Assembly (NCBI GenBank): GCA_029846755.1
Contig: JARWBI010000006.1
Span: 62,001 to 126,000 of the forward strand
Direction: 5' to 3'
Length of the DNA: 64,000 nt
Source of the DNA: Falsirhodobacter flavus
GTDB lineage: Bacteria > Pseudomonadota > Alphaproteobacteria > Rhodobacterales > Rhodobacteraceae
Positions 5,884-20,008 of this stretch are shown in pieces. Position numbers and translations under genes: made by a program. The first letter of the stretch is position 1. Every line of letters starts with the position of its first letter. Under the pieces are notes generated by a model. The model did no database searches, had not been told where the DNA came from, and worked only from the letters and a program-made list of their open reading frames with translations.

Positions 5884-6339
5884 GTGAGCCAGACGAAGTT
5901 CGACGACGACGATCCGCGCATCGCCCACAACCGGGTATGGTTCAACCTTGCGCGAATCCAGCGCAGCATCGGCCCCCGCATCGCCCGCGCGCTGAAGGCG
6001 ATCGGGATCGACGATCCGATCTGGTATGAGATCCTGCTGGAGGTCGAACGCGCGGGGCCGGACGGAATGCGCATGGCGGAACTGGAAGGCCGCCTGTTCG
6101 TGCCGCAATACGCCCTGTCACGCCACGTCTCGCGCCTGTGCGCCGCCGGGTTTCTGCGCAGCGCGCCGCTGCCGGGGTCGGGCCGCGCGCGCCAGCTTCA
6201 CCTGACGCCCGCCGGCACCGGGCTGCACGACCGCATCTGGCCCGCCTACATGGAGGCGATCCAGGCCGAATTCGCCCACCGCCTGACGGTGGACGAGGCC
6301 TATGATCTGTCGCGGATGCTGATCCGCCTTTATCCCTAG
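5884..6339 (+). CDS. MarR-family transcriptional regulator
   Basis: A winged-helix regulator of about 151 residues. The MarR pattern is visible: a dimerisation helix (VWFNLARIQRSIGPRI), a recognition region (MAELEGRLFVPQYALSRHVSRLCAAGFL) and a wing followed by LTPAGTGLHDRIW. I chose the GTG at 5884 because it gives the typical length; ATGs at 5827 and 5836 are alternatives with weaker ribosome sites. The gene is divergent from the FAD oxidoreductase operon, so it probably controls that operon. Its stop shares CTAG with the stop of the convergent receptor gene. Confidence 0.8.
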   Translation: MSQTKFDDDDPRIAHNRVWFNLARIQRSIGPRIARALKAIGIDDPIWYEILLEVERAGPDGMRMAELEGRLFVPQYALSRHVSRLCAAGFLRSAPLPGSGRARQLHLTPAGTGLHDRIWPAYMEAIQAEFAHRLTVDEAYDLSRMLIRLYP

Positions 6340-8291
6340 AATCGCATCTCGGCGGTCAGGCTGATCGTGCGGCCGGGCTCGCGCAGGGGTTCGAACTCGA
6401 ACACTTCGCTGTCGGCATAATCGACGCCATATGTGGCGCGGTCCGAATACTGCTGGTCGAACAGGTTGCCGACGCCAAGGCGCACGATCATGTCCGGCAG
6501 GGCCTGCGGAATGTATTCCGCAAACACGTTCACGACAGTATATCCCGGAATGGCAGCGGCTTCACCCCAGCGGTCGCCATCGGCGCGGTCATAGTCGAGA
6601 GCGGCGTCGATGCCGCCGCCCAGCGTCAGACCGGACGCGATCTGCTGCTCGACCTCGAACTTGACGACTTCGCCCAAGGGTGCGCCATAATCGACCGCGT
6701 CATAGCTGGCGGTGTCCACCCCGTTCAGCGTCACATCGCTGTTGGCATAGGTCAGGCGGGCAAAGCCGCCCTCCCAGCCATAGGTCGCGCCGAGGTTGAA
6801 GCCCTTGCTCTCGAAATCGAAATTCTCGCTTCCGCTGCGGGCATCGGCGATGCGCGTGCGGAACAGTTCGCCCCCAAGGCGCAGATCGCCCCGTTCCCAG
6901 TCGAACCCGAGCGTGACGTTGTTCGACCGCGCGGCCTTCAACCCGTCATAGCTTTCGATGCTGTCGAAGACATAGTTGTCCTCCAGCGTCACGCCGCCGA
7001 ACACGTTGGAGTACCCGGCGCGCAGCGTCAGATCGTCCGTCACGTCATATGCGACCGAGGCATTGCCCGACAGCCCGTCGTAATCTTCCTTGAACGTCGT
7101 GCGGGTATTGCCTTCGAAAGACTGGAAATCCGCCCGCGCGCCGAAGCTGAAGCGCAGCCGTTCCAGCGGCGAAAGGCGGGCCTGCGCGAAGACGCCGATG
7201 TTGCGGGCGGCCTCGTCGAAGGCGACGGCGCCCTCCCCCTCGAACACGCCCCGATATTTGCTTTCACGGTCATAGAAATCGACGCCCGCAACCACCGTAT
7301 TGCCTTCCGAGAAGGTGAAGGTGTTCTGCGCCGTTCCCGACAAGGCCGAGGACGTCCCGCGGCTTTGGGAAAACGCCGGGATATTCACGCGGCTTTCGGA
7401 CCAGCCGAGGCTGACCTTCGGGTCCCACATCCCCCCGTCCAGCGTGTTCTCATAGCTGATGGCATAGCTTTTGCGTGTCGTGTCATAAAAATTCAGCGCG
7501 CCCTTCGGCCCCCGTCCGGGAAAGCCGATATTTGCCCGTGCCGAACGATAGGAGGCGTCGTTCAACTGCTGCCCAGAAACCTCGAAACGGTGCCCCTCGG
7601 CCGATTCGAATGCGCCTTTCAGCAGATAGCTGGTCAGGTCCGCCTTGCTGCCATAGACCTCGTTGCCATTGCCGTCGTCATAGGCCTCGCCCGTGGCCCG
7701 CTTGAAATAGCCCAGCCATTCGAAGCCTTCATACATCCCGGCGACGGTCGCGGCGCCCTGCCAAGTGCTGCCATTGTCGGAATAACCGAGCCGCAGGTTC
7801 CCGCCCACGCTCTGCCCGTCGCGCAGGATGTCGGCGGCGTCCACCGTCTCCATCACCACCGCGCCGGCCAGCGCATTCGGCCCGGTATCGGCGGCGGCGA
7901 CCCCAGCATCGGCACGGACCTGCTTCAGCAGCCCCGGATCGATGGCATTCGCCGAAACGTGGTGGAAAGCGCGGTTGTTCTGCGCCACGCCGTCGATCTG
8001 CACCGACAGGTTCAGCATGTCGATCCCGTTGACGAAGATCTTCTGCGCCAGAGGGATCGCGCCGCCGACCGAAACCGAGGCGATGCCCGCGAAGACATCC
8101 TTCAGATCGCCCAGGCGCGCCCGCTCCAGTTCGGCATCGGCGACATAGACGGCGGTGGCGCGATCTGCTCCGCCGGACTGCTCATCTCGCTGTTCGACGA
8201 TGATCGGGTCAAGCAGGATGTCCTGCGCATGGACGGGAAGGGCAAGCAGCGTCAGGGCAGTGCCGGACAGAAGCCGGTTCAGGGAAATCAT
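6336..8291 (-). CDS. TonB-dependent outer-membrane receptor
   Basis: A 651-residue outer-membrane receptor: signal peptide (cleavage near PVHA-QD), a TonB-box-like DPIIVEQ at the mature N-terminus, a plug domain with QKIFVNGIDMLNLSVQIDGVAQ near residue 90, and a beta-barrel ending in SLTAEMRF with the usual terminal phenylalanine. The plug pattern (IFVNGI, VQIDG, HHVSANAIDPGLLK) resembles haem/iron-related receptors, but a substrate cannot be fixed. No ABC transporter is next to it. A short perfect inverted repeat lies about 85 bases upstream of the ATG and may be its operator. Confidence 0.85.
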   Translation of the reverse strand: MISLNRLLSGTALTLLALPVHAQDILLDPIIVEQRDEQSGGADRATAVYVADAELERARLGDLKDVFAGIASVSVGGAIPLAQKIFVNGIDMLNLSVQIDGVAQNNRAFHHVSANAIDPGLLKQVRADAGVAAADTGPNALAGAVVMETVDAADILRDGQSVGGNLRLGYSDNGSTWQGAATVAGMYEGFEWLGYFKRATGEAYDDGNGNEVYGSKADLTSYLLKGAFESAEGHRFEVSGQQLNDASYRSARANIGFPGRGPKGALNFYDTTRKSYAISYENTLDGGMWDPKVSLGWSESRVNIPAFSQSRGTSSALSGTAQNTFTFSEGNTVVAGVDFYDRESKYRGVFEGEGAVAFDEAARNIGVFAQARLSPLERLRFSFGARADFQSFEGNTRTTFKEDYDGLSGNASVAYDVTDDLTLRAGYSNVFGGVTLEDNYVFDSIESYDGLKAARSNNVTLGFDWERGDLRLGGELFRTRIADARSGSENFDFESKGFNLGATYGWEGGFARLTYANSDVTLNGVDTASYDAVDYGAPLGEVVKFEVEQQIASGLTLGGGIDAALDYDRADGDRWGEAAAIPGYTVVNVFAEYIPQALPDMIVRLGVGNLFDQQYSDRATYGVDYADSEVFEFEPLREPGRTISLTAEMRF

Positions 8292-8436: not shown

Positions 8437-9273
8437 TCATTCGGCAGGCACGCCGGCGGGGGTGTGGGCCGCGCGTTTCGGTGCCGTCCGGTGATGCGTG
8501 GCGTAAAGCGTCAGCCCGACGAAGGCGAGCCCGCCCACGAGGTTCCCGGCCACGGTCGGGATCTCGTTCCAGATCAGGTAATCCATGACCGAGAAGTCGC
8601 CGCCCAGCAGGATGCCCGAGGGGAACAGGAACATGTTCACCACCGAATGTTCGAAGGCCATCGCAAAGAAAAGCATGATCGGCATCCACATCCCGATCAC
8701 CTTGCCGGACACGCTGGTGGACATCATCGCCGCCACGACCCCGGTGGACACCATCCAGTTGCAAAGCACGCCGCGGATGAACAGCGTCAGCATCCCCGCC
8801 GCGCCGTGATCGGCATAGCCGACGGTGCGCGAATGGCCAATCTCTCCGATCTTCTGGCCGACGGCATCGGGCGCCTGCGAGAAGCCATAGGTGAAGACGA
8901 TGGCCATCATCACCGCCACCGTGAACGCTCCGGCGAAATTACCGATGAAGACCAGACCCCAGTTCCGCAGAAGCCCCTGCATCGTGACGCCCGGCCGCTT
9001 GTCGATCAACGCCAGAGGAACCAGCGTGAACACCCCGGTCAGAAGATCGAACCCCATCAGGTAAAGCATGCAGAACCCGACCGGGAACAGGATCGCGCCG
9101 ATGATCGGCACGCCCGTCTGCACCGTGACGGTCACGGCGAACACCGCCGCCAGTGCAAGGATCGCACCGGCCATGAAGGCGCGGATCACCGTATCGCGGG
9201 TGGACATGAAGACCTTCGCCTCTCCGGCGTCGATCATCCGGGTCACGAAGTCCGAGGGTGGGACATAGGCCAT
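8437..9273 (-). CDS. nirC: Formate/nitrite (FNT) family transporter, probable nitrite channel
   Basis: A 278-residue membrane protein of the FocA/NirC pentameric channel family, with the six-helix pattern and signatures FMAGAILALAAVFAVTV, GNFAGAF, RGVLCNWMVSTGV and AFEHSVVNMF, whose central histidine is the conserved pore residue. Nitrite is the likely substrate because the gene abuts the nasT-nasS-nirBD cluster. The start was set at 9273: the AGGAGG site is 7 bases upstream of that ATG but only 1 base from the in-frame ATG at 9279. The same AGGAGG can pair with an upstream CCTCCT in the mRNA, suggesting translational control. Confidence 0.85.
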   Translation of the reverse strand: MAYVPPSDFVTRMIDAGEAKVFMSTRDTVIRAFMAGAILALAAVFAVTVTVQTGVPIIGAILFPVGFCMLYLMGFDLLTGVFTLVPLALIDKRPGVTMQGLLRNWGLVFIGNFAGAFTVAVMMAIVFTYGFSQAPDAVGQKIGEIGHSRTVGYADHGAAGMLTLFIRGVLCNWMVSTGVVAAMMSTSVSGKVIGMWMPIMLFFAMAFEHSVVNMFLFPSGILLGGDFSVMDYLIWNEIPTVAGNLVGGLAFVGLTLYATHHRTAPKRAAHTPAGVPAE

Positions 9274-9280
9274 TGGCATT

Positions 9281-9377
9281 CCTCCTGCCGTGATGGCTGC
9301 AAGGAGGACCGCATGGCGCAGCAGCGGAAAACCCTCCTGTGCAGCGCCATTGCCGTGATGGCCGCATCGTTGCGGCC
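9281..9377 (-). promoter_or_regulatory. nirC mRNA leader with alternative hairpins and an ANTAR-like hexaloop
   Basis: On the minus strand, reading toward nirC: a perfect hairpin GGCCGC-AACGAT-GCGGCC (9377 to 9360), whose six-base loop has A at position 1 and G at position 4, the pattern known for ANTAR-protein RNA targets. Then CTGCACAGGAGG (9344 to 9333), CCTCCTTGCAG (9307 to 9297) and the ribosome site AGGAGG (9286 to 9281). The middle segment can pair with the upstream one (11 bp, one bulge) or with the ribosome site (6 bp), but not both. This is read from sequence only; function is inferred from NasT being encoded next door. Confidence 0.45.
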
Positions 9378-9595
9378 CATGACCCATCCGTGGAATCGCA
9401 GCCCGGCGCCTTGCAACCTGCGCGGGGCCGTCCCCGGCCTGCGAACGCCTTGCTGCCGAAAATTTGGGCAAAACCGCCCACAACCTGCACGGCAGCGGGC
9501 AGCGAGCAGAAAACCGAGGCGCAGCGTCCGCCTGCAATTGCCCCCGCGCGTCCGGCATGGCCAGCAGGCATCAGGCCCCTTTTGCGGAACCCCGG
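9378..9595. other. Divergent promoter region between nirC and nasT, no gene
   Basis: No convincing reading frame occupies this part of the 322-base gap. A second weak hexaloop (TTCC-ACGGAT-GGGT on the minus strand, 9395 to 9382) precedes the nirC leader hairpin by a short linker. I could not identify a sigma-54 promoter or a clear -35/-10 pair for either gene. Confidence 0.4.
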
Positions 9596-10171
9596 ATGAA
9601 ACGTCTTTCCATCGTGCTTGTCGAAAAGCTGCCCGAACGCGCCGCCCTGATCGCCGAGGCGCTGGGCCGCGACCACGACCTGACCGTCATCGACACCGAC
9701 AAGGGTCTTGCCCGCCGGATCGCGGATCTTGCGCCGGATCTGGTGCTGATCGACCTCGCCAACCCTTCGCGCGATGTGCTGGAGGAGCTGAGCCTTGCAT
9801 CGTCGCCGATGGAGCGGCCCGTGGCGATGTTCGTGGACCGATCCGACCAGGGCCTGACCCGCGCGGCCATCGAGGCGGGCGTGTCCGCCTATGTCGTGGA
9901 CGGGCTGCGGGCGGAACGGATCACCCCGATCCTCGACGCGGCCATCGCACGGTTTCACATGTTCCAGCGCGTGCGCGCCGAACTTGCCGCCACCCGCGCC
10001 GCGCTGGAGGAACGCAAGATCATCGACCGCGCCAAGGGTATCCTGATGAAGGCCAAGGGCATCGGCGAGGATGAGGCCTATGCCCTCATGCGGCGCGGGG
10101 CGATGGACCAGAAACGCAAGATCATCGACATTGCCCAGGCCATCATCACTGCGGCGGAGCTGCTGAAATGA
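9596..10171 (+). CDS. nasT: NasT, ANTAR-domain antitermination regulator
   Basis: A 191-residue two-domain protein. The N-terminal receiver-like domain (LSIVLVEKLPERAALIAEAL, then LVLIDLANP) lacks the full canonical acidic pocket. The C-terminal ANTAR domain (LEERKIIDRAKGILMKAKGIGEDEAYALMRRGAM, about residues 130-180) binds paired hairpins in nascent RNA and prevents formation of a terminator. In NasST systems NasS holds NasT inactive until nitrate or nitrite is sensed. Its stop overlaps the nasS start (ATGA). Likely targets are the leader hairpin and terminator before nirB and possibly the nirC leader. Confidence 0.9.
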   Translation: MKRLSIVLVEKLPERAALIAEALGRDHDLTVIDTDKGLARRIADLAPDLVLIDLANPSRDVLEELSLASSPMERPVAMFVDRSDQGLTRAAIEAGVSAYVVDGLRAERITPILDAAIARFHMFQRVRAELAATRAALEERKIIDRAKGILMKAKGIGEDEAYALMRRGAMDQKRKIIDIAQAIITAAELLK

Positions 10172-11307
10172 GCCTCACGCCCATCTCGGTCGGCTTTCTG
10201 CCTTTGGTCGATGCCGCCCCCTTCATCATCGCGCGCAATCTGGGCTTTGCCGCCGAGGAAGGGCTGGACCTGTCCCTGACCCGCGCGCCCTCATGGTCCG
10301 CGCTGCGCGACCTTCTGGCCTTCGGGTCGGTGGACGCCGCGCATATGCTGTCCCCCGTGCCGGTCGCGGCCAGCCTTGGGATCGGCGGCATCCGAATGCC
10401 CATCGATGCGCTGATGATGACCTCGCAAGGGGGCGAGATGCTGGCCGTATCGCGCCCCGTCGCGCGGCGGATGCGCGATGCGGGATACGGGTTCGATTTT
10501 GCCGATGTTCCCGCTGCACGCGCGGCACTGGGCGCGGAACACTTGCGCATCGGCATTCCCTTTGCGCTGTCGCTGCATGTGGAACTCTTGCACCGCGCCT
10601 TCGGCGGTGCGCTTGATCTGCACACCGTTCCGCCCCCGCAGATGGCCGAGGCGCTGGACGCGGGCGAGATCGACGCCTTCATCGTGGGCGAGCCCTGGGC
10701 ATCGATGGCGGTGGAACGCGGCAAGGCGGAACTGCTGCTGCCCGGCACCGCCATCTGGCGCGGCGCGCCGGAAAAGGTGCTGGCCATGCGCCGCGACCGG
10801 GCCGACGAGGCGCCGGACCTGACCGCCCGCCTGATGCGCGCCGTCTGGCGGTCCTGCCGCTGGCTGGAAAGCCCCGCGAACCGCCTGCCCGCCTCCGAAA
10901 TCCTTGCCCGCCATATCGACGTTCCGCCCGAGGTGATCGAGCGCATCATGGCCCACCGCCTCGTCATCTCGCCCGACGGAGAGGAGCGCCGCGCACCGCA
11001 GTTCCTGCAATTCTTCGACGGATGCGCGACATTCCCGTGGCGCAGTCAGGCGGCGTGGATCGGGACCCGCCTTGCCGCACGGCACGGGCTGGACATCGCC
11101 ACCGCCAGAGGCACCGCCATGTCGGTGTTTCGCACGGATCTCTATCGCCGGAACCTCGGCCCCGCAGGCGCGGACCTGCCCGCCGCATCCTCGCGGCTGG
11201 AGGGCGCGGTGGGCGAACCCAGCCTGCATCCCGCCGCCGCCGGGCGCGTGATTCTGCTGCCCGATCCGTTCTTCGATGGCGCGGTTTTTGACCCCGAGGC
11301 GGGCTGA
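10168..11307 (+). CDS. nasS: NasS, nitrate/nitrite sensor of the NrtA fold
   Basis: A 379-residue protein related to the NrtA/CmpA periplasmic binding proteins but without a signal peptide, as expected for the cytoplasmic sensor NasS. Typical segments are VGFLPLVDAAPFIIARNLGFAAEEGLDL, FGSVDAAHMLSPVP, GIPFALSLHVELL, DAFIVGEPWASMAVERG and FPWRSQAAWIGTRL. NasS binds nitrate or nitrite and then releases NasT. It overlaps nasT by four bases and is followed after about 215 bases by nirB, with RNA attenuator structures in the gap. Confidence 0.9.
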   Translation: MSLTPISVGFLPLVDAAPFIIARNLGFAAEEGLDLSLTRAPSWSALRDLLAFGSVDAAHMLSPVPVAASLGIGGIRMPIDALMMTSQGGEMLAVSRPVARRMRDAGYGFDFADVPAARAALGAEHLRIGIPFALSLHVELLHRAFGGALDLHTVPPPQMAEALDAGEIDAFIVGEPWASMAVERGKAELLLPGTAIWRGAPEKVLAMRRDRADEAPDLTARLMRAVWRSCRWLESPANRLPASEILARHIDVPPEVIERIMAHRLVISPDGEERRAPQFLQFFDGCATFPWRSQAAWIGTRLAARHGLDIATARGTAMSVFRTDLYRRNLGPAGADLPAASSRLEGAVGEPSLHPAAAGRVILLPDPFFDGAVFDPEAG

Positions 11308-11370
11308 GCGCCTGAAAATCGGGCAACCGCCGCAAGCCCGCAGCCCCGCCGCCCCGCCGCGTTGACGCGA

Positions 11371-11460
11371 GCCCCCCGCGGGGCGAAAACGAACCAACCG
11401 GCAGGTGCCAAGGACGTCACCGCCGATTCCCCCGATGCCGAGGGTCTGAACCCGAGCAAC
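11371..11460 (+). promoter_or_regulatory. nirB leader hairpins, candidate NasT (ANTAR) target
   Basis: Three small stems are visible. GCCCC-CCGC-GGGGC lies at 11371-11384. GGTGCC-AAGGAC-GTCACC lies at 11404-11421; its six-base loop has A1 and G4 as in ANTAR targets and its stem has one mismatch just below the closing pair. CCCCC-GATGCC-GAGGG lies at 11429-11444, with the same stem geometry and loop size but G at position 1; an alternative GGGT-CTGA-ACCC (11442-11453) overlaps it. A terminator hairpin follows directly, which is the layout expected for ANTAR-controlled antitermination. Confidence 0.55.
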
Positions 11461-11503
11461 GCCGCTCGACTGCCGCCGAAAGGTGGCCAGTCGCGTGGCT
11501 TTT
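11461..11503 (+). terminator. Intrinsic terminator (attenuator) immediately upstream of nirB
   Basis: A long stem runs from 11461 to 11499. GCCGC pairs with GTGGC (one G-U), CGACTG with CAGTCG, and CCGCC with GGTGG (one G-U), around a GAAA tetraloop at 11478-11481, with one mismatch and one bulge. It is followed at once by TTTT (11500-11503). The hairpin ends about 20 bases before the nirB ATG, so it would stop transcription before the gene unless antiterminated. With nasT/nasS just upstream, this is the expected control point. Confidence 0.7.
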
Positions 11504-11524
11504 CGTCATTTCAAGGAACGCATG

Positions 11525-13939
11525 ATGACCCAGAAACTCGTCGTCATCGGTGCGGGCATGGCCTCGGGCCGGATGCTCGAACACCTGACCGATACCGATC
11601 CAGGCGCATATGACATCACGCTTTTCAACGCGGAACCGCGCGGAAACTACAACAGGCTGATGCTATCCCCGGTGCTGTCGGGAGAGAAGACCTATGCCCA
11701 GATCGTGACACATGACGAGCCGTGGTATGCCGCCCGCGCCATCGACATCCGCTTTGGCGAGCCGGTGGTAAAGATCGACCGCCGCAACCGCACGGTCGTC
11801 TCCGCCTCGGGCGGGGTGCCTTATGACAAGCTGGTCATCGCCACCGGATCGGCCCCGTTCATCATCCCGGTGCCGGGGCGCGATCTGCCCGGCGTCGTCA
11901 CCTTCCGCGATCTGGACGATACCGATGCGATGACGGCGGCGGCGGCCAAGGGCGGCCATGCGGTCGTGATCGGCGGCGGCCTTCTGGGGCTGGAGGCTGC
12001 GGCGGGCCTGCGGATGCTGGGGATGGAGGTGACCGTCATCCACCTGATGGGCCACCTGATGGAACGGCAGCTTGACCCCGCTGCCGGATACCTGCTGCAA
12101 AAGGATCTGGAACGCCGGGGCATCAAGGTCCACTGCAAAGGCGCGACCAAGGCGATCCTTGGCGATGGTCGGGTCGAGGCGGTGCTGCTGGAGGACGGCA
12201 CCACCTATCCCGCCGATCTGGTCTGCATGGCCGTCGGCATCCGCCCGGAAACCCGCCTTGCCACCGATGCAGGGCTGGATGTGGCGCGCGGCATCACCGT
12301 TTCGGACGCGATGGAAACCTCGGACCCCGCGATCTTTGCGCTGGGCGAATGCGTCGAACATGACCGCCAGCTTTTCGGCCTTGTCGCGCCGCTTTACGAT
12401 CAGGCGAAAGTGCTGGCCGATACGTTGCTGGGCCAGCCGGCTGCCTTCCGCCCCGTCCAGACCGCGACCAAGCTGAAGGTCACCGGCTGCGATCTGTTCA
12501 GCGCGGGCGATTTCGCCGAAGCCGAAGGGCGCGAGGATATCGTCTTCCGCGACCCCGGGCGCGGCATCTACAAACGTCTGGTGCTTGAAGGCGACCGCCT
12601 TGTCGGCGCGGTCATGTATGGCGACACTGCCGACGGTGCGTGGTTCTTCGACCAGATCCGCAGCGGCGCGGATATCGCGGACAAGCGCAACACGCTGATC
12701 TTCGGCCCGTCCGCTGGCACCGCCGACCCGCTGGCTGCGGTCGCCGCCATGCCCGACAGTGCCGAGATCTGCGGCTGCAACGGCGTCTGCAAGGGCCGCA
12801 TCGTCCAAGCCATCAAGGACGGCGCGACCGATCTGGACGCCGTGCGGGCAACGACCAAGGCCAGCGCCTCCTGCGGGACCTGCACGGGGCTGGTGGAACA
12901 GGTCATGTCGCTGACGCTTGGCGATACGTTCCAGATGCCGACCGCGAAACCGATGTGCAAATGCACCGATCACACGCATGAAGACGTCCGCCGCCTGATA
13001 AAGTCGATGGGCCTGAAATCCATCCCCGCCGTGATGCAGGAACTGGGGTGGACGACGGCGGGCGGCTGCGCGTCGTGCCGTCCGGCGCTGAACTACTATC
13101 TGATTGCGGATTGGCCGCTGGAATACCAGGACGACCGCCAGAGCCGCTTCGTGAACGAACGCAACCACGCCAACATCCAGAAGGACGGCACCTATTCCGT
13201 GGTTCCGCGCATGTGGGGGGGCGTGACCACCCCGACCGAACTGCGCGCCATCGCGGACGCTGCCGACAAATACAACGTGCCGATGGTCAAGGTCACGGGC
13301 GGGCAGCGCATCGACCTTCTGGGCGTGCGCAAAGAGGATCTGCCCGCCATGTGGGCCGACCTGAACGCCGCCGGGATGGTGTCGGGCCACGCCTATTCCA
13401 AGGGGCTGCGGACGGTGAAGACCTGCGTGGGGTCCGAATTCTGCCGCTTCGGCACGCAGGACAGCACGGGCCTTGGCATCAAGCTGGAAAAACTGCTTTG
13501 GGGATCATGGACGCCGCACAAGGTGAAACTCGGCGTCTCGGGCTGCCCGCGCAACTGCGCCGAGGCGACCTGCAAGGATGTGGGCATCATCTGCGTTGAC
13601 AGCGGATACCAGATCAGCGTCGCAGGCGCTGCGGGGATGGAGTTGAAGGAGACGCAGCCCCTCGCCCTCGCCACGACCGAAGAAGAAGCGATCGAGCTGA
13701 CCACCGCCTTCATCCAGCTTTATCGCGAACACGCGAAATACCTCGACCGGCCCTATAAATGGGTGGCGAAGGTGGGCCTCGACTGGGTGATCGCGCAGGT
13801 GATGGAACACCGGACCGCGCTTGTTGAACGGTTCGAGGTCAGCCAGTCGGTCTATCGCCGCGACCCTTGGGCCGAACATGCGGCAGAGGCCACGAAATGG
13901 GCCCCCATGGCCGACCTGACGCTGGAGGCAGCAGAATGA
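11525..13939 (+). CDS. nirB: Assimilatory nitrite reductase, large subunit
   Basis: An 804-residue NAD(P)H-dependent nitrite reductase that reduces nitrite to ammonium. Order of domains: FAD/NAD-binding module (KLVVIGAGMASGRMLEHL at the start, HAVVIGGGLLGLEAAAGLRMLG near residue 145), BFD-like [2Fe-2S] region (CGCNGVCKGRI ... CGTCTGL near 415-460, and a second CKC...CASCR set), then the sulfite/nitrite reductase core with the sirohaem-[4Fe-4S] cysteines TCVGSEFCRFG and GCPRNCAEATCKD near 640-690. ATG at 11522 or 11525 is possible; AAGGAA spacing favours 11525. It overlaps nirD by four bases. Confidence 0.95.
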   Translation: MTQKLVVIGAGMASGRMLEHLTDTDPGAYDITLFNAEPRGNYNRLMLSPVLSGEKTYAQIVTHDEPWYAARAIDIRFGEPVVKIDRRNRTVVSASGGVPYDKLVIATGSAPFIIPVPGRDLPGVVTFRDLDDTDAMTAAAAKGGHAVVIGGGLLGLEAAAGLRMLGMEVTVIHLMGHLMERQLDPAAGYLLQKDLERRGIKVHCKGATKAILGDGRVEAVLLEDGTTYPADLVCMAVGIRPETRLATDAGLDVARGITVSDAMETSDPAIFALGECVEHDRQLFGLVAPLYDQAKVLADTLLGQPAAFRPVQTATKLKVTGCDLFSAGDFAEAEGREDIVFRDPGRGIYKRLVLEGDRLVGAVMYGDTADGAWFFDQIRSGADIADKRNTLIFGPSAGTADPLAAVAAMPDSAEICGCNGVCKGRIVQAIKDGATDLDAVRATTKASASCGTCTGLVEQVMSLTLGDTFQMPTAKPMCKCTDHTHEDVRRLIKSMGLKSIPAVMQELGWTTAGGCASCRPALNYYLIADWPLEYQDDRQSRFVNERNHANIQKDGTYSVVPRMWGGVTTPTELRAIADAADKYNVPMVKVTGGQRIDLLGVRKEDLPAMWADLNAAGMVSGHAYSKGLRTVKTCVGSEFCRFGTQDSTGLGIKLEKLLWGSWTPHKVKLGVSGCPRNCAEATCKDVGIICVDSGYQISVAGAAGMELKETQPLALATTEEEAIELTTAFIQLYREHAKYLDRPYKWVAKVGLDWVIAQVMEHRTALVERFEVSQSVYRRDPWAEHAAEATKWAPMADLTLEAAE

Positions 13940-14265
13940 TGATCGACATCGGACCCCTTTCGGACATCCCCCGCCAAGGCGCACGCGTGGTGAAGACCCC
14001 TCATGGCTGCGTCGCGGTCTTTCGCACCGCCACGGATCAGGTCTTCGCCATCGACGACGCCTGCCCGCACAAGGGCGGCCCGCTGTCCGAAGGGATCGTG
14101 CATGGCACCTCCGTCACCTGCCCGCTGCATTCCTGGGTGTTCGATCTGAACACCGGCATGGCGCAGGGCGCGGACGAAGGCACCGTCGCCACCTATGCCG
14201 TGATGGTCGAGGACGGGCGCATCCTGCTGGACGCCGCATGGCTGCGCGAAAGGAGCGCGGCATGA
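13936..14265 (+). CDS. nirD: Nitrite reductase small subunit with intact Rieske cluster site
   Basis: A 109-residue partner of NirB. It has the complete Rieske [2Fe-2S] ligand set CPHKGG and CPLHSW (CxH and CxxH) near residues 43 and 62. Some enterobacterial NirD proteins lack these ligands, so this one probably carries electrons rather than being purely structural. The start overlaps the nirB stop (ATGA) and its stop overlaps cobA, so the three genes should be translated in concert. Confidence 0.9.
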   Translation: MMIDIGPLSDIPRQGARVVKTPHGCVAVFRTATDQVFAIDDACPHKGGPLSEGIVHGTSVTCPLHSWVFDLNTGMAQGADEGTVATYAVMVEDGRILLDAAWLRERSAA

Positions 14266-15020
14266 GCTTCCTGCCCCGCTTCCCCGCCATGGGCCAGATC
14301 GCGCTGGTCGGCGCCGGCCCGGGCGCGGCGGACCTGCTGACCATTCGCGCCCTGCGCCGGATCGAGGCTGCCGACGTGATCTTCCACGACCGCCTGATCG
14401 ACCCCGAGGTGCTGGCCTTGTCCCCCGCCCGCAAGGTCTTCGTCGGCAAGGAAGTCGGCGCGAACGCGTGGCCGCAGACGCGCATCAATGCCGTCATCAC
14501 CGCCGCCGCCCTGTCGGGGCTGAAGGTCGTGCGCCTGAAATCGGGCGATCCGTCGATCTTTGGCCGCGCCGCCGAGGAGTTGGACGCCGCCCGCGCCGCC
14601 GGAATTCCGATCGAGATTGTCCCCGGCATCACCGCCGCCAGCGCCGCCGCATCGGCCCTTGGCCGCCCGCTGACCGAACGCGGGCAGACCGAGCGACTGG
14701 TGATCGCCACCGCCACCTGCCGCCCCGGCACCGTCGCGACGCTGGCGATCGCCCCCGGCACGACCCTTGCGCTCTACATGGCGATGCACCGGCTGGCCGA
14801 GGTGGAGGCGGAACTGATGGCCATGGGTGTGCCGCCCGAGTCCGATGTGCAGATCGTGCAATCCGCAGGCTGCGAGAACCAGCGCATCGTGGAATGCACG
14901 CTGCATGGCATGGCCAACGCCGCCGCCGGCTTTGCGAACCCCGCCATTGTGCTTGTCCGCTGGACCGCGCCTGCTATGGTCGGCGAATGGACGATGCAAC
15001 GCTCCTCGATCACCTGCTGA
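14262..15020 (+). CDS. cobA: Uroporphyrinogen-III C-methyltransferase
   Basis: A 252-residue SAM-dependent methyltransferase that makes precorrin-2, the precursor of sirohaem, needed by NirB next door. Signatures: VGAGPGAADLLTIRALRRIEAADVIFHDRL at the start, VRLKSGDPSIFGRAAEE near residue 95 and VPGITAASAAASALGRPLT near 125. It is a single-function CobA/SumT, not a CysG fusion; no dehydrogenase/ferrochelatase partner is seen in the window. It starts in the nirD stop (ATGA). Confidence 0.92.
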   Translation: MSFLPRFPAMGQIALVGAGPGAADLLTIRALRRIEAADVIFHDRLIDPEVLALSPARKVFVGKEVGANAWPQTRINAVITAAALSGLKVVRLKSGDPSIFGRAAEELDAARAAGIPIEIVPGITAASAAASALGRPLTERGQTERLVIATATCRPGTVATLAIAPGTTLALYMAMHRLAEVEAELMAMGVPPESDVQIVQSAGCENQRIVECTLHGMANAAAGFANPAIVLVRWTAPAMVGEWTMQRSSITC

Positions 15021-15556: not shown

Positions 15557-16140
15557 TCGGGCGCGTTCAGTTCCAGACTGCCGCCGCGCAGGTTGAACGC
15601 CTCCAGCCGCGCCCCACCCGCAGGATAGGCCAGCACCGTCATGCTGCCCGGCCCCACCGGAATGATGCGCGAGGGCTGGAGCTCCAGCGCCGCATCCAGG
15701 GCGGCGCGGATCACGCCGCCATGGCAGACCAGAACCGCGGTCCGTTCCGCCGCCGCCAGCGCGTCGCGCATCGCCAGCGCCACGCGGGCGCGGAACACGG
15801 CCCATGTCTCGGCCCCTTCGGGAACGAACTGACCCGCACGCCACGCCTGATATTCGCCTGCATCCAGACCGGCGATGTCGCGCCCCGACCAGTCGCCCAG
15901 GTCCTGTTCGCGCAGCCGGGGTTCGGACTGCGCATCAACGCCCAGAAGCACAGCCGTTTCCGCCGCACGCTTCAGATCCGACGCCACCGCCAGATCGGGC
16001 GCGAGCCCGGCGACCATCGGCGCAAGCGCGCGCGCCTGCCCCCGCCCCCGGTCGTTCAGCGCGATGTCCGTCTGCCCCTGCAAGCGGCGCAGCGCGTTCC
16101 ATTCGGTTTCCCCATGGCGGACCAGAACAAGACGTTTCAA
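15553..16140 (-). CDS. Histidine phosphatase (phosphoglycerate mutase-like), TTG start
   Basis: A 195-residue member of the histidine phosphatase superfamily. The catalytic loop is VRHGETEWN at the N-terminus and the second histidine is in LVCHGGVIRAA near residue 140. The start is a TTG at 16140 that overlaps the ATPase stop (TTGA), preceded by AAGGA. Such enzymes remove phosphate from small molecules. Being translationally coupled to an ABC importer suggests it acts on the imported, phosphorylated substrate or a derivative. Confidence 0.82.
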   Translation of the reverse strand: MKRLVLVRHGETEWNALRRLQGQTDIALNDRGRGQARALAPMVAGLAPDLAVASDLKRAAETAVLLGVDAQSEPRLREQDLGDWSGRDIAGLDAGEYQAWRAGQFVPEGAETWAVFRARVALAMRDALAAAERTAVLVCHGGVIRAALDAALELQPSRIIPVGPGSMTVLAYPAGGARLEAFNLRGGSLELNAPD

Positions 16141-17159
16141 ACGGGTTTTCCTTCGCTATCGAATATCGCCGCAGGCGCGGCAGGCAGCGCGACATGCAGC
16201 ACATCGGGCAGCGCACCAAAGGCCGGGGCCACGACCGACAGGCGCATCCCATCGGCCCGCACGGTTACCAGCCGCCGCCCGACCATCGGGATCGCCTCGA
16301 CCAGCTCGGCCTGAACGGTGCGCGGGCCGGGATCGGCCAGCGACAGATCCTCGGCCCGGACCATGGCGTGGCCCGTCGCGCCGCGCAGGGCGGCATCGGG
16401 CAGCCGCGCGAACCATGCGCCGTCCCGCACCGGGATCAGGTTGGCGGGCGGCGTTCCGACGAACCCGGCAACGAAGCTTGACGCCGGCCGCGCCAGCAGA
16501 TCCTCGGGGGTGCCGAACTGTTCGACCCGCCCCGCCCGCATCACGGCGACATGGCTTGCCAGCGTCATCGCCTCGGTCTGGTCATGCGTGACATAGACCG
16601 CCGTCGCCCCTGTCATGCGGTGGATGCGCGCGATCTCGTGCCGCATTTCCACGCGCAAAGTGGCGTCGAGGTTCGACAGCGGCTCGTCGAACAGCATGTA
16701 TTTCGGCCGCGCCGCGATCATCCGCGCCAAGGCGACGCGCTGCTGCTGCCCGCCCGAAATCTCGGAAGGATAGCGTTCGGCCAGCGCGCCCAGACCCATC
16801 ATCTTCAGCGCCTCGGCCACCAGGGTGGCGCGGTCTTGCACATGGCCGACCTTCAGCGGCCAGTCCACATTCCCCGCCACGGTCATATGCGGCCACAGCG
16901 CATAGGACTGGAACACCAGTCCCGCCCCTCGTTTCTCTGGCGGCATCGACATGCGCCCATCCGCCACCACACGGCCCCCGAAACGGATCGCGCCGCTGCT
17001 GGGCCCTTCCAGCCCCGCCAGCATCCGCAGCATCGTGCTTTTGCCGCAGCCCGACGGACCCAGCAGCACCAGAAATCCGCCCTCGGGCACGGTCAGCGAC
17101 ACATCCTCGACAGCGAAGGCCGTGTCGAAACGCTTGGTCAGGTTTTCAATCGATATCAT
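16137..17159 (-). CDS. ABC importer ATPase (CUT/POT-like, with TOBE region)
   Basis: A 340-residue nucleotide-binding subunit. Walker A is GPSGCGKST near residue 35, signature SEISGGQQQR near 135, Walker B MLFDEPLSNLD near 157, and the switch histidine lies in VTHDQTEAM. The C-terminal third is the beta-rich domain typical of FbpC/PotA/UgpC-type ATPases. It overlaps the permease stop by four bases and the phosphatase start by four bases, so the four genes form one unit. Confidence 0.88.
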   Translation of the reverse strand: MISIENLTKRFDTAFAVEDVSLTVPEGGFLVLLGPSGCGKSTMLRMLAGLEGPSSGAIRFGGRVVADGRMSMPPEKRGAGLVFQSYALWPHMTVAGNVDWPLKVGHVQDRATLVAEALKMMGLGALAERYPSEISGGQQQRVALARMIAARPKYMLFDEPLSNLDATLRVEMRHEIARIHRMTGATAVYVTHDQTEAMTLASHVAVMRAGRVEQFGTPEDLLARPASSFVAGFVGTPPANLIPVRDGAWFARLPDAALRGATGHAMVRAEDLSLADPGPRTVQAELVEAIPMVGRRLVTVRADGMRLSVVAPAFGALPDVLHVALPAAPAAIFDSEGKPV

Positions 17160-18844
17160 TTCCCGCGCCCCTTCAGCGCATTCGCCAGAACCGTCGCCAG
17201 CACCGAAATCAGCAGGATCACCAACGTCACCGCATTGGCGAATTGATGGAACCCGTCCGAGGCATAGCGATAGGACAGCACCGAGAGCACCGGCACCTGC
17301 GGCGTGTAAAGCAGCACGACGATGGCCAGATCGCCGATCACGTTGACGAAGGCCAAAAGCGCCCCCGCGATCATCCCTTTGGACGCCAGCGGCAGGGTGA
17401 TCGCAAACAGCCGCCGCACGAACCCCGCCCCGGTCATCCGCGCCGCCTCGTCCACATCGCCGGAAATCTGCGCCACCGTCGCGCGGCCCGTCTGCACGGC
17501 GAAGGGGAGCGTCGCCGCCACCAAGGCCAGCGCCAGAAGCCATGGCGTGCCATACAGCGCCGGAAGCGGCCCGATCGGCGCACCATAAAGCGCGATATAA
17601 GCCGCGCCGAACGCGATCCCCGGCAGCAGCATCGGCAGGAAGGCCAGCTGGCTGACCGCCTCGGTCAGCACGGGGATGCGCTTGCCATTCAGCACCACCG
17701 CCGCCAGCAGCCCGATCAGCACCGACACCACCGCGACGCCTACGCCCAAGGCCAGCGTCATCCAAAGCGCGGTCATCAGCTGCGGGTTGCGGAAGATGCC
17801 AGCCTGTCCGCGTGCGAAGGCGGGATCGGACACCCCCACCCAGAAATGCAGCGTCCAGTTCGAAAACAGCGCCGATCCCTGCGGCGCCAGTGACGCCGCC
17901 GCCAGAAGGATGATCGGCAGCACGGTCGTGATGAAACACACCGCCAGCGCCAGCGCGCAAAGCGGGCCGCGCGCACCGCCAAGGGTCATCCGTTTCGCCC
18001 GCGCGCCTTTGCCGCCGATGGTCGCGAAACTGCGCCGCCCCGCCAGCAGCCGGTTGCCCGCGCCCAAAAACACCGCCGACACCACGATCAGCAGCATGGC
18101 AAGGATATATCCCCGCTCGGTCTGGCCGATCTCGACCATGCCGAACAGGCGGGTCGAAAGCGTCTGCATCCGCACTGGCAGGCCCAGAAGCGCGGGCGCG
18201 GCGAAATTCGACACCCCCGCCGCAAAGGCGAGGGACCCGCCCGCCAGCAGCGCCGGCGTCACCATCGGCAGCACGATCCCGAACACGATGCGGCGGCGCG
18301 AGGCCCCCGCCATCTGCCCCGCCTCGACCACGTCGCCATTCAGCGACGCAAGCGAGGCCGCAACGACCGTGAACGCCAGCGCGAAATATTGCGAGATCAG
18401 CACGAATGCCGTCGGCACCATGCCCCAGGCCAGCCAATCGGGCACGGACATGCCCCACCCTTCCAGCATCCCGATGCTGCCGCCCGCCCGGCTGTTGCGG
18501 AACAGGCTGCCCCACGCGAGCGCGGTGGCAAAGCTGGGGATCATGAAAGGCAATGTCGCCAGCACCCCTAGCGTCCGACGGAACGGCACGTCCGTCATCA
18601 CAACCAGCCAGGCAAGGAAGCCGCCGATCAGGACCGATCCCAGTGCCGTCGCCAGCCCGAGGATCATCGTGTTCTTCAACGGCACCCAGGTCAGGTTGCG
18701 CGACAGGTTCGATCCCAGAACCTCGCGCCATGCCGGGCTGCCGGCGGTATCAAGAAGGATGGTCGCCAGTGGCGCCGCAACCAGCGCCGCCAGCAAGGCC
18801 AGAACGCCAAGCGTCAGGCCGAAACCACGGGGAAAGATCGTCAT
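17156..18844 (-). CDS. ABC importer permease, two permease domains fused
   Basis: A 562-residue integral membrane protein with two binding-protein-dependent transport domains in one chain, as in the FbpB/AfuB/ThiP layout. The cytoplasmic coupling loops can be seen as EAGQMAGASRRRIVFGIVLPMV near residue 180 and EAARMTGAGFVRRLFAITLPLA near residue 485. It imports whatever the downstream-encoded binding protein captures, driven by the coupled ATPase. The start lies 18 bases after the binding-protein gene. Confidence 0.88.
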   Translation of the reverse strand: MTIFPRGFGLTLGVLALLAALVAAPLATILLDTAGSPAWREVLGSNLSRNLTWVPLKNTMILGLATALGSVLIGGFLAWLVVMTDVPFRRTLGVLATLPFMIPSFATALAWGSLFRNSRAGGSIGMLEGWGMSVPDWLAWGMVPTAFVLISQYFALAFTVVAASLASLNGDVVEAGQMAGASRRRIVFGIVLPMVTPALLAGGSLAFAAGVSNFAAPALLGLPVRMQTLSTRLFGMVEIGQTERGYILAMLLIVVSAVFLGAGNRLLAGRRSFATIGGKGARAKRMTLGGARGPLCALALAVCFITTVLPIILLAAASLAPQGSALFSNWTLHFWVGVSDPAFARGQAGIFRNPQLMTALWMTLALGVGVAVVSVLIGLLAAVVLNGKRIPVLTEAVSQLAFLPMLLPGIAFGAAYIALYGAPIGPLPALYGTPWLLALALVAATLPFAVQTGRATVAQISGDVDEAARMTGAGFVRRLFAITLPLASKGMIAGALLAFVNVIGDLAIVVLLYTPQVPVLSVLSYRYASDGFHQFANAVTLVILLISVLATVLANALKGRGK

Positions 18845-18862
18845 GGCCTCGGCCTGCCCGTC

Positions 18863-19963
18863 TTATTGCAGCGTCAGGATCAGATCGGCGACTTCGGCGC
18901 GGATCTTTGCGGTTTCAGCGGCATCGATGGTCCAGCCGTTGAAATTGTCCAGCGCGATCGCATCGGGATGCGGTGCGATGTCGGTGCGCGTCGCCCAATC
19001 GCCCGCGACATAGAAGGGTTTGAACCCGTCGCCGCCGGTTTCGGTATCGTCGCCCATCATGAAGTCGATGGCCAGACGCGCCGCCGCCGGATTCGCAGCC
19101 TTCGGGTTCACCGCCAGAAGCGCCGGGAAGACGATCCCGTTCGCGGGCGCGACCTCGTTCGCCACCTGCAGCGCCCAGCCCTCGTCCTCGTTGTCGCGGC
19201 GGTCGGAATAGGAGGTGAAACCGATCGGTGCCGCCTCCTGCCCCTTGGCACCGATGGCCGCGTTCACGTCATCGGTCGAACCGACCAGCACCAGGTCGTT
19301 GGCGAACAAATCCGCGATGAACCGCTTGCCCGCATCCTCGCCCGCGGGCAGCGCCTCGCCGAACTCGGTCTGATAGGCCGCCGCCATTTCATCGCTGCGC
19401 AGCACGATCTCGGTCATCAGATCCAGATAGTCGCCGCGCTGAAGCGGGTCGACCATGATGACCTTGCCTGCCCATTCCGGTTTCGTCAGATCCCAGAGGC
19501 TGTCCACCGGCGCACCGTCGGGATGGCTTTCCTCGTTATACATCAGCACCTTGGTCGACAGGCGCTGTGCCAGAAGCGGCGATTTCAGCGCTTCGGGCAC
19601 CAGCCCTTCGACGCGCGGCGGAACATAGGGTGCGACCAGCCCCGCCTCGAACAGTTCCGTCAGCACCACCGGCGCATCCGAGATATAGACGACATCCGCC
19701 CCCGCGATCCCCGCCCCCGCTTCGGCCTTGATCCGCGCGATCTGCTCGGTCGAGGACATGTCGAAGCTGACCATGTCGATGCCGGGATAGGCGGCTTCGA
19801 ACGCCGCTTCGACCCGCCCGATCCGGCTGGTGAAGGCATAGACGGTGACCGTGCCCTCGGCCTCGGCCAGGGGTTTCAGATCGGCGGCGGAAAGCGTGTC
19901 CAGATCCTGCGCCCAGACGGGCGTGGTCATGGCAAGCGTGGCAAGAAGCGGCAGAAAACGCAT
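18863..19963 (-). CDS. Periplasmic substrate-binding protein, FbpA/AfuA-like
   Basis: A 366-residue type-2 binding protein with a signal peptide (MRFLPLLATLAMTTPVWA-QD). The fold is recognised from VTVYAFTSRIGRVEAAFEAAYPGI, ADVVYISDAP, MYNEESHPDGAPVDSLWDLTKPEWAGKV and the C-terminal region. I do not see the adjacent tyrosine pair that iron-binding FbpA proteins use, and the neighbours are a phosphatase and a sugar-phosphate-type regulator. A hexose-phosphate-like substrate, as for AfuA, is therefore more likely than iron. The ATG at 19963 has a GGGGA ribosome site; an upstream in-frame extension lacks one. Confidence 0.8.
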   Translation of the reverse strand: MRFLPLLATLAMTTPVWAQDLDTLSAADLKPLAEAEGTVTVYAFTSRIGRVEAAFEAAYPGIDMVSFDMSSTEQIARIKAEAGAGIAGADVVYISDAPVVLTELFEAGLVAPYVPPRVEGLVPEALKSPLLAQRLSTKVLMYNEESHPDGAPVDSLWDLTKPEWAGKVIMVDPLQRGDYLDLMTEIVLRSDEMAAAYQTEFGEALPAGEDAGKRFIADLFANDLVLVGSTDDVNAAIGAKGQEAAPIGFTSYSDRRDNEDEGWALQVANEVAPANGIVFPALLAVNPKAANPAAARLAIDFMMGDDTETGGDGFKPFYVAGDWATRTDIAPHPDAIALDNFNGWTIDAAETAKIRAEVADLILTLQ

Positions 19964-20008
19964 GTGATTCCCCAAGGGCTGCTGTGTCCATGCCATCGGT
20001 AGCCGCAA

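Follow-up and report, generated by a model that had tools for sequence, protein, structure and literature searches.

The 214-nt gap between nasS and nirB very probably carries a leader RNA that acts as a NasT-dependent transcription antitermination switch. We located it in the window, the whole 64,000-nucleotide stretch of Falsirhodobacter flavus DNA analysed here, in which the leader and the genes that it connects lie on the forward strand. A preliminary description, made from the letters of the DNA, had proposed an ANTAR-type antitermination leader with an intrinsic terminator at 11371-11524 and NasT as its regulator. The hexaloops, the overlap between the last hairpin and the terminator, and the covariation uphold that reading; the element itself occupies 11402-11503. 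The description's placement of nasT and nasS directly upstream and nirB downstream agrees with the matches to PF03861, PF13379 and TIGR02374.

Genomic context of the leader

Upstream of the leader, nasT (9593-10171, +) encodes a response-regulator-like protein with a C-terminal ANTAR RNA-binding domain (PF03861, 72.3 bits) and is followed by nasS (10168-11307, +; PF13379, NMT1_2 family, 168.7 bits). We assigned the name nasS from gene context and from published NasTS systems, and its product is probably a cytoplasmic nitrate/nitrite sensor. Downstream, nirB (11522-13939, +, with its ATG at 11522) encodes the large subunit of nitrite reductase (TIGR02374, 887 bits) and is preceded by AAGGAA (11513-11518, +), which we read from the sequence as the likely nirB ribosome-binding site. 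Next come nirD (13936-14265, +; TIGR02378, 97 bits) and a uroporphyrinogen-III methyltransferase gene (14238-15020, +; TIGR01469, 224 bits). Divergent from nasT is a formate/nitrite-family transporter gene (8437-9558, -; PF01226, 214.7 bits) that probably serves nitrite uptake beside nirBD; these are the bounds of the open reading frame as listed, and the true start may be less far upstream. The nitrite cluster is flanked by a TonB-dependent receptor gene (6336-8291, -; PF00593) and by an ABC transporter operon (16137-20008, -) whose translations resemble those of an iron-type one.

NasT is the likely regulator because the order is nasT-nasS-leader-nirBD and because NasT is the sole ANTAR (PF03861) match in the 4.02-Mb source genome at E<=0.001. 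The genome also holds one match to the covariance model R1 described below, the leader itself; no second match was found at E<=1 among the 150 of 1644 first-look candidates that were scored. Residues Y163 and M171 of NasT align with Tyr164 and Met172 of EutV, which contact the loop, given an inferred two-residue offset between the chain and the published numbering. Elsewhere in the source genome (C1:66291-68855, L216) we read a NasA-like nitrate reductase homologue with 61% identity to that of the same-genus genome G004. It contains one in-frame TAA and may be a broken gene or reflect a sequencing error, and no R1 match was found at that locus at E<=0.05.

Hairpins and terminator

The leader comprises three candidate hairpins and a terminator. 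The first hairpin, P1 (11402-11423, +), pairs 11404-11407 with 11418-11421 and closes its loop AAGGAC (11410-11415) with C11409-G11416; the loop has A at position 1 and G at position 4 (A1/G4), and the helix covaries in relatives. The middle hairpin, Pm (11430-11444, +), reads CCC-C[GATGCC]G-A-GGG, with G1 and G4 in its loop (11434-11439), and the aligned G4 is conserved. Fold and conservation support the third, the candidate antiterminator hairpin P3 (11453-11468, +), which reads CGAGC[AACGCC]GCUCG, has an A1/G4 loop at 11458-11463 and closes it with C11457-G11464, so that P1 and P3 both show the C:G closing pair expected of ANTAR targets. The intrinsic terminator (11461-11503, +), identified from its fold, has a stem at 11461-11499, a GAAA loop at 11478-11481 and UUUU at 11500-11503, and the nirB ATG follows 18 nt after the last T. 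Its 5' arm takes in the 3' half of the P3 loop together with the complete 3' arm of that hairpin; since P3 and the terminator use the same stretch (11461-11468), they are mutually exclusive. The U-run, UUUUCGUC, has five U in eight positions and is weaker than that of most relatives, 91 of the 108 aligned leaders having 6-8 U in eight downstream of the terminator. With thresholds that we set ourselves, a search of both strands of the 64 kb finds a single place, this one, where two A1/G4 hexaloops are paired and the second alternates with a U4 terminator.

The AAGGAC hairpin, the weak GATGCC hairpin and the long stem with its GAAA loop and TTTT are present as the preliminary description had them. 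It took the GATGCC hairpin as the partner of P1, overlooking the AACGCC hairpin P3, which is the actual partner, and it suggested that the A1 rule might be looser here. Position 1 is indeed relaxed, mostly in the Pm loop; the switch itself needs no looser rule, since P3 has A at position 1.

The three loops start at 11410, 11434 and 11458, in steps of 24 and 24 nt. If Pm is counted, each of the two linkers (11422-11429 and 11445-11452) spans 8 nt, inside the range of the eut leaders, whereas the P1-P3 linker without Pm is 31 nt (11422-11452) and falls outside it. Besides the C:G closing pairs and the overlap with the terminator, the leader shows two further features of an ANTAR dual-hexaloop target, a pair of A1/G4 hexaloops (P1 and P3) and a cognate ANTAR protein (NasT), and another, a short linker, is lacking between P1 and P3; Pm rescues the spacing but does so without A1. 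We therefore class the leader as a variant and not as a plain ANTAR dual-hexaloop member. Rfam (4227 models) gave no match over the window at the gathering threshold and none at E<=5 for 11300-11540.

On its own, the terminator reaches -30.0 kcal/mol (z -6.0; 0 of 200 shuffles) and P3 reaches -6.4 kcal/mol (z -2.9; 3 of 200 shuffles), while P1 (z -0.38) and Pm (z -1.17) show no unusual stability against shuffles by folding alone, and the segment 11402-11471 is no better than shuffles (z +0.31). The support for P1 and Pm accordingly comes from comparison and not from energy. In the range that the preliminary description had named, 11308-11524, the best fold contains a rival hairpin, GGGU[CUGA]ACCC (11442-11453), that overlaps Pm, whereas in that of 11402-11505 the Pm core is retained and the terminator wins over P3. 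This last result implies that P3 must be held if nirB is to be read, as in the ANTAR mechanism. The Pm fold in the window is marginal, and its loop G1 is predicted to pair with C6. When the middle segments were searched simply for their best hairpin, the loops obtained measured 3-10 nt and the window yielded the rival hairpin; evidence on the G of the middle loop was taken from alignments and not from this search.

Two simple scans were negative. A simple terminator scan missed the terminator at 11461-11503, probably because it looks for an unbroken hairpin (loop of 3-8) immediately before a T-run and this stem contains mismatches. A consensus scan found no promoter for the leader, and sigma-70 matches of at least 9 of 12 just upstream of P1 occurred in 4 of 108 leaders, against a shuffle mean of 2.5 and maximum of 7. 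The mean consensus score over the 108 leaders was 6.45 compared with 5.82 for shuffled sequence, and we claim no promoter.

Conservation and covariation in the Rhodobacteraceae

With a cut-off of E<=1e-60, 152 of 394 family genomes hold NasS (152 of 393 genera), and with E<=1e-20 it has matches in 40 of 121 genomes, the source genome included. We extracted 132 regions downstream of nasS, 127 from the family and 5 from other families. A scripted search found a P1/P3 pair in 120, and 108 of these, including the window, were aligned with MAFFT, blind to structure, to give alignment A1. Twelve were left out (L011, L017, L020, L024, L027, L028, L030, L032, L041, L059, L099 and L131): some had spurious pairs, L027, L028 and L030 do not belong to the family, and L011, L017 and L041 are real leaders of another layout. 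Rows were picked by A1/G4 in P1 and by A or G at position 1 with G4 in P3, so the conservation of these two loops in the alignment is partly due to selection, a bias that R1 inherits; Pm played no part in the selection.

The stems are conserved in related leaders and covary, the comparison on which the earlier reading had been staked. In the alignment 85.2% of helix cells pair, against 71.0% when shuffled and 30.6-44.5% when slid; the covariation score is 0.430 against 0.177, and changes on both sides of a pair occur in 288 cells against 110. The model-fitted sets A2 and A3 gave the same outcome. Pairs with both-side changes number seven of eight in P1, two of five in P3 and three of four in the Pm stem, and for Pm most of the signal (22 of 25 such cells) falls in one outer pair. 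The loop-closing pair is C:G in 107 of 108 leaders for P1, in 108 of 108 for P3 and in 69 of 108 for Pm. Position 4 of the Pm loop is G in 99 of 108, and position 1 holds A in 57 leaders, G in 35, and U and C in 8 each. P3 and the terminator overlap in 105 of the 108 aligned leaders, the window among them; for the exceptions (L019, L039 and L121) the script may have taken the wrong U-run.

The covariance model R1 was built from the 108 aligned rows and scores the window leader, itself a training row, at 51 bits. At E<=0.01 it matches 118 of the 129 family loci offered and misses L003, L011, L017, L024, L025, L034, L059, L092, L099, L110 and L124. By reading, L034, L092 and L110 bear hexaloop arrays, L003 has no leader and L025 meets a contig edge. 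Among the 118 matches P1 has G4 in 118, A1 in 114 and G1 in 4, and P3 has G4 in 118, A1 in 115 and G1 in 3, counts that are not independent since R1 was trained on such leaders. In a class-wide sample with stricter filters (17 candidates per genome scored among those listed), R1 has a match at E<=0.01 in 4 of 289 genomes, of which two lie outside the family, and weaker matches also occur outside it. The triple form, as modelled, appears to be mainly a family trait.

Proposed mechanism and known systems

We propose that, with neither nitrate nor nitrite present, NasS would keep NasT, the terminator (11461-11503) would form and transcription would halt before nirB. Nitrate or nitrite would free NasT, which would bind the A1/G4 loops as they emerge. 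By holding P3 (11453-11468), which takes up the terminator's 5' arm, it would keep the terminator from forming, and nirBD would be transcribed. Pm may be a further, weaker NasT contact between P1 and P3. The model joins the sequences, conservation, covariation and P3/terminator overlap observed here with NasT binding, its release by nitrate or nitrite, and read-through, which we infer from work on NasST in other species.

In the openly available parts of the sources cited here, the ANTAR-target literature describes two hairpins. For EutV, genetics of the eut leaders supports the A1/G4 rule, a distance of 24 nt separates the eutP loops (A29 and A53), and linkers in eut leaders measure 5-12 nt (PMC3369931); a survey of actinobacterial ANTAR targets accepted linkers of 2-25 nt. 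The EutV dimer is proposed to contact one hexaloop at a time, cycling from the first to the next; lengthening the linker by 20 nt abolished antitermination; and G4 stacks on Tyr164 while A1 has no specific contact (PMC8934654). The eutP leader of Enterococcus faecalis thus resembles the window leader in its A1/G4 hexaloops, in a last hairpin that overlaps the terminator and in the 24-nt loop step, and differs in having two hairpins where the window has three candidates at 24+24 nt. The nasF leader of Klebsiella oxytoca is alike in A1/G4, C:G closure and a nitrate or nitrite signal, SELEX with NasR having returned A1/G4 hexaloops on C:G closing pairs; there, however, full binding of NasR requires no more than two hairpins, and sensor and ANTAR domain reside in one protein (PMC7496416).

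A parallel in gene order is the nasA leader of Paracoccus denitrificans, which spans about 200 bp with hairpins directly downstream of nasTS and whose RNA is bound by NasT (PMC3795266, PMC5424462). In that species NasT leaves NasS on nitrate or nitrite (PMC3795266). Replacing hairpin HI prevented growth on nitrate, and a 3-base change in HII hardly altered expression with nitrate and doubled it with ammonium (PMC5424462). The HI-HII distance of 46 nt fits the P1-P3 spacing; the equation of HII with P3 and the terminator is mapped by distance only, and the HII result could follow if the change breaks both. The target there is nasABGHC and not nirB, and the parts of these papers available to us describe HI and HII without a middle hairpin. 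Antitermination within nirBD-PA1779-cobA of Pseudomonas aeruginosa is already in print, a system that we liken to ours, with antitermination before nirBD and cobA in the operon, by its title alone (in the references of PMC6759348). Antitermination before nirBD is known in kind, and the recurrent triple array is an architectural variant; no third hairpin in a NasT leader was found in the openly available literature searched.

Role of the middle hairpin and alternative readings

A passive spacer is a serious contender, to which we give slightly short of an even chance: Pm would do no more than fold up the linker and bring P1 near P3, never being touched by NasT. The Pm loop interval between the paired arms is 7 nt in 106 of 118 R1 matches, so most Pm loops are not strict hexaloops, and in the window G1 and C6 are predicted to pair. 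The P1-P3 loop distance is 40-63 nt in 116 of the 118 matches and 27-28 nt in the other two (L041 and L109), with none between. Among the 116 long-spaced leaders, G4 together with at least three of four stem pairs is found in 83, leaving about a quarter without both, and a freer test (three Watson-Crick pairs, a loop of 5-8 and G at loop position 4) finds Pm in 96. Leaders from G004 and from two Gemmobacter loci, with P1-P3 at 40-41 nt, have it absent or degenerate. A spacer, however, requires no loop sequence, yet the aligned Pm has G4 in 105 of the 116 long-spaced leaders and a purine at position 1 in 101 of 118 matches (A in 64, G in 37). Also against a spacer, the 15 aligned leaders of loci that we label Rhizobiales-type (L187-L212) have a hairpin with an ANTAR-like loop, AAYGAN in 9 of 15, 18-21 nt upstream of the last. 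Pm G4 is rarer where P1 and P3 are 40-45 nt apart (9 of 14) than where they are more than 45 nt apart (96 of 102; Fisher p 0.004), an association that is not independent proof because loss of Pm itself shortens the distance.

Within the reading of Pm as a weaker NasT contact, one specific form is a three-step relay, in which a single NasT dimer would be handed from P1 to Pm to P3, each step near the eut distance. We hold it tentatively and consider it doubtful on present evidence. The stacking of EutV Tyr164 on G4, with A1 free of specific contact, fits a Pm that keeps G4 and relaxes A1. If the relay is true, a Pm that relaxes A1, conserves G4, is common where P1 and P3 lie far from each other and is missing at a distance of 27-28 nt would furnish natural evidence for the cycling model. 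More generally, the triple leaders bear on how an ANTAR dimer uses two loops while apparently binding singly, and natural three-loop leaders together with relatives that have closed the gap without Pm are ready constructs for separating hand-over from simultaneous binding.

An improbable alternative is that Pm and P3 form the true ANTAR pair and P1 is accessory. Their loops lie 20-22 nt from each other in 78 of 105 leaders, comparable to 18-21 nt in the Rhizobiales-type leaders and 24 nt in eutP. P1 is nevertheless the better-kept hexaloop, with A1 in 114 of 118 against 64 of 118 for Pm (though P1 was selected by A1/G4) and closing C:G in 107 of 108 against 69 of 108. L041 and L109 keep P1 and P3 without Pm, and the P. 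denitrificans hairpin HI, essential in vivo, stands 46 nt upstream of HII, which is the P1-P3 distance. It is very unlikely that the stem serves only to end the nasTS transcript and that the small hairpins have no role. The stem does lie directly 3' of nasS and fold strongly, but the hexaloop array, with its covariation and the P3/terminator overlap, is found again in other genomes of the family, and the G004 array stands before an operon that is not located behind nasS. Least likely of all is that NasT recognises P1 and the GATGCC hairpin under a looser rule with a separate terminator, since that hairpin, although it can form and conserves G4, does not overlap the terminator, so binding there alone could not exclude termination, whereas P3 overlaps it and obeys the rule.

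Leaders of other layout

Several leaders dispense with Pm. L041 and L109 are, by reading, direct P1-P3 pairs at 27-28 nt, and loci from Litoreibacter and Sulfitobacter (L180, L181) have direct pairs at 28 nt, again without Pm. At longer distances, a Tabrizicola leader (L184) has P1 and P3 38 nt apart with a middle loop AAAAUC and no clean Pm, the two Gemmobacter leaders (L169, L170) stand at 41 nt with no clear Pm, and L183 stands at 40 nt with no clean Pm. The same-genus G004 leader (L143) has P1 and P3 40 nt apart with only a C run between. Its R1 match (32.6 bits; L143 12226-12480, -) precedes an operon that we read as cobA-narK-nirB-nasA, and the G004 nasTS genes are on another contig, followed by a gene that reads as deaminase-like, with no R1 match beside them. 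The position of this leader, apart from nasTS and before the nas operon, indicates that the leader travels with the operon; NasT in G004 would act in trans on it. Search models with two hairpins, and the lack of a matching Rfam family, can leave leaders like that of the window unannotated in nitrate/nitrite-assimilating Rhodobacteraceae.

In the Rhizobiales-type loci the last hairpin, GGC[AANGCY]GCC, switches with a U-run terminator, and, unlike the window leader, these leaders lack a P1 some 48 nt away. An extra upstream hairpin, GGGUCC[AGAGG]GGAC or near it, which is possibly a third ANTAR-like loop, stands in five of these 15 loci (L187, L193, L196, L198 and L201). Two same-genus leaders between nasS and nirB, L011 (G006) and L017 (G005), show three hexaloop hairpins, with loops AACGUC and AAGGAU followed by GAUGAA or GAGGAA. 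They have no U-run directly after a stem by reading and no R1 match at E<=0.01, and they may use another mode of termination or act on translation. Outside the family, L164 (2775-2830) and L148 (2921-2990) each carry three consecutive A1/G4 hexaloops before a U-run terminator, in steps of 28+19 and 37+22 nt, respectively.
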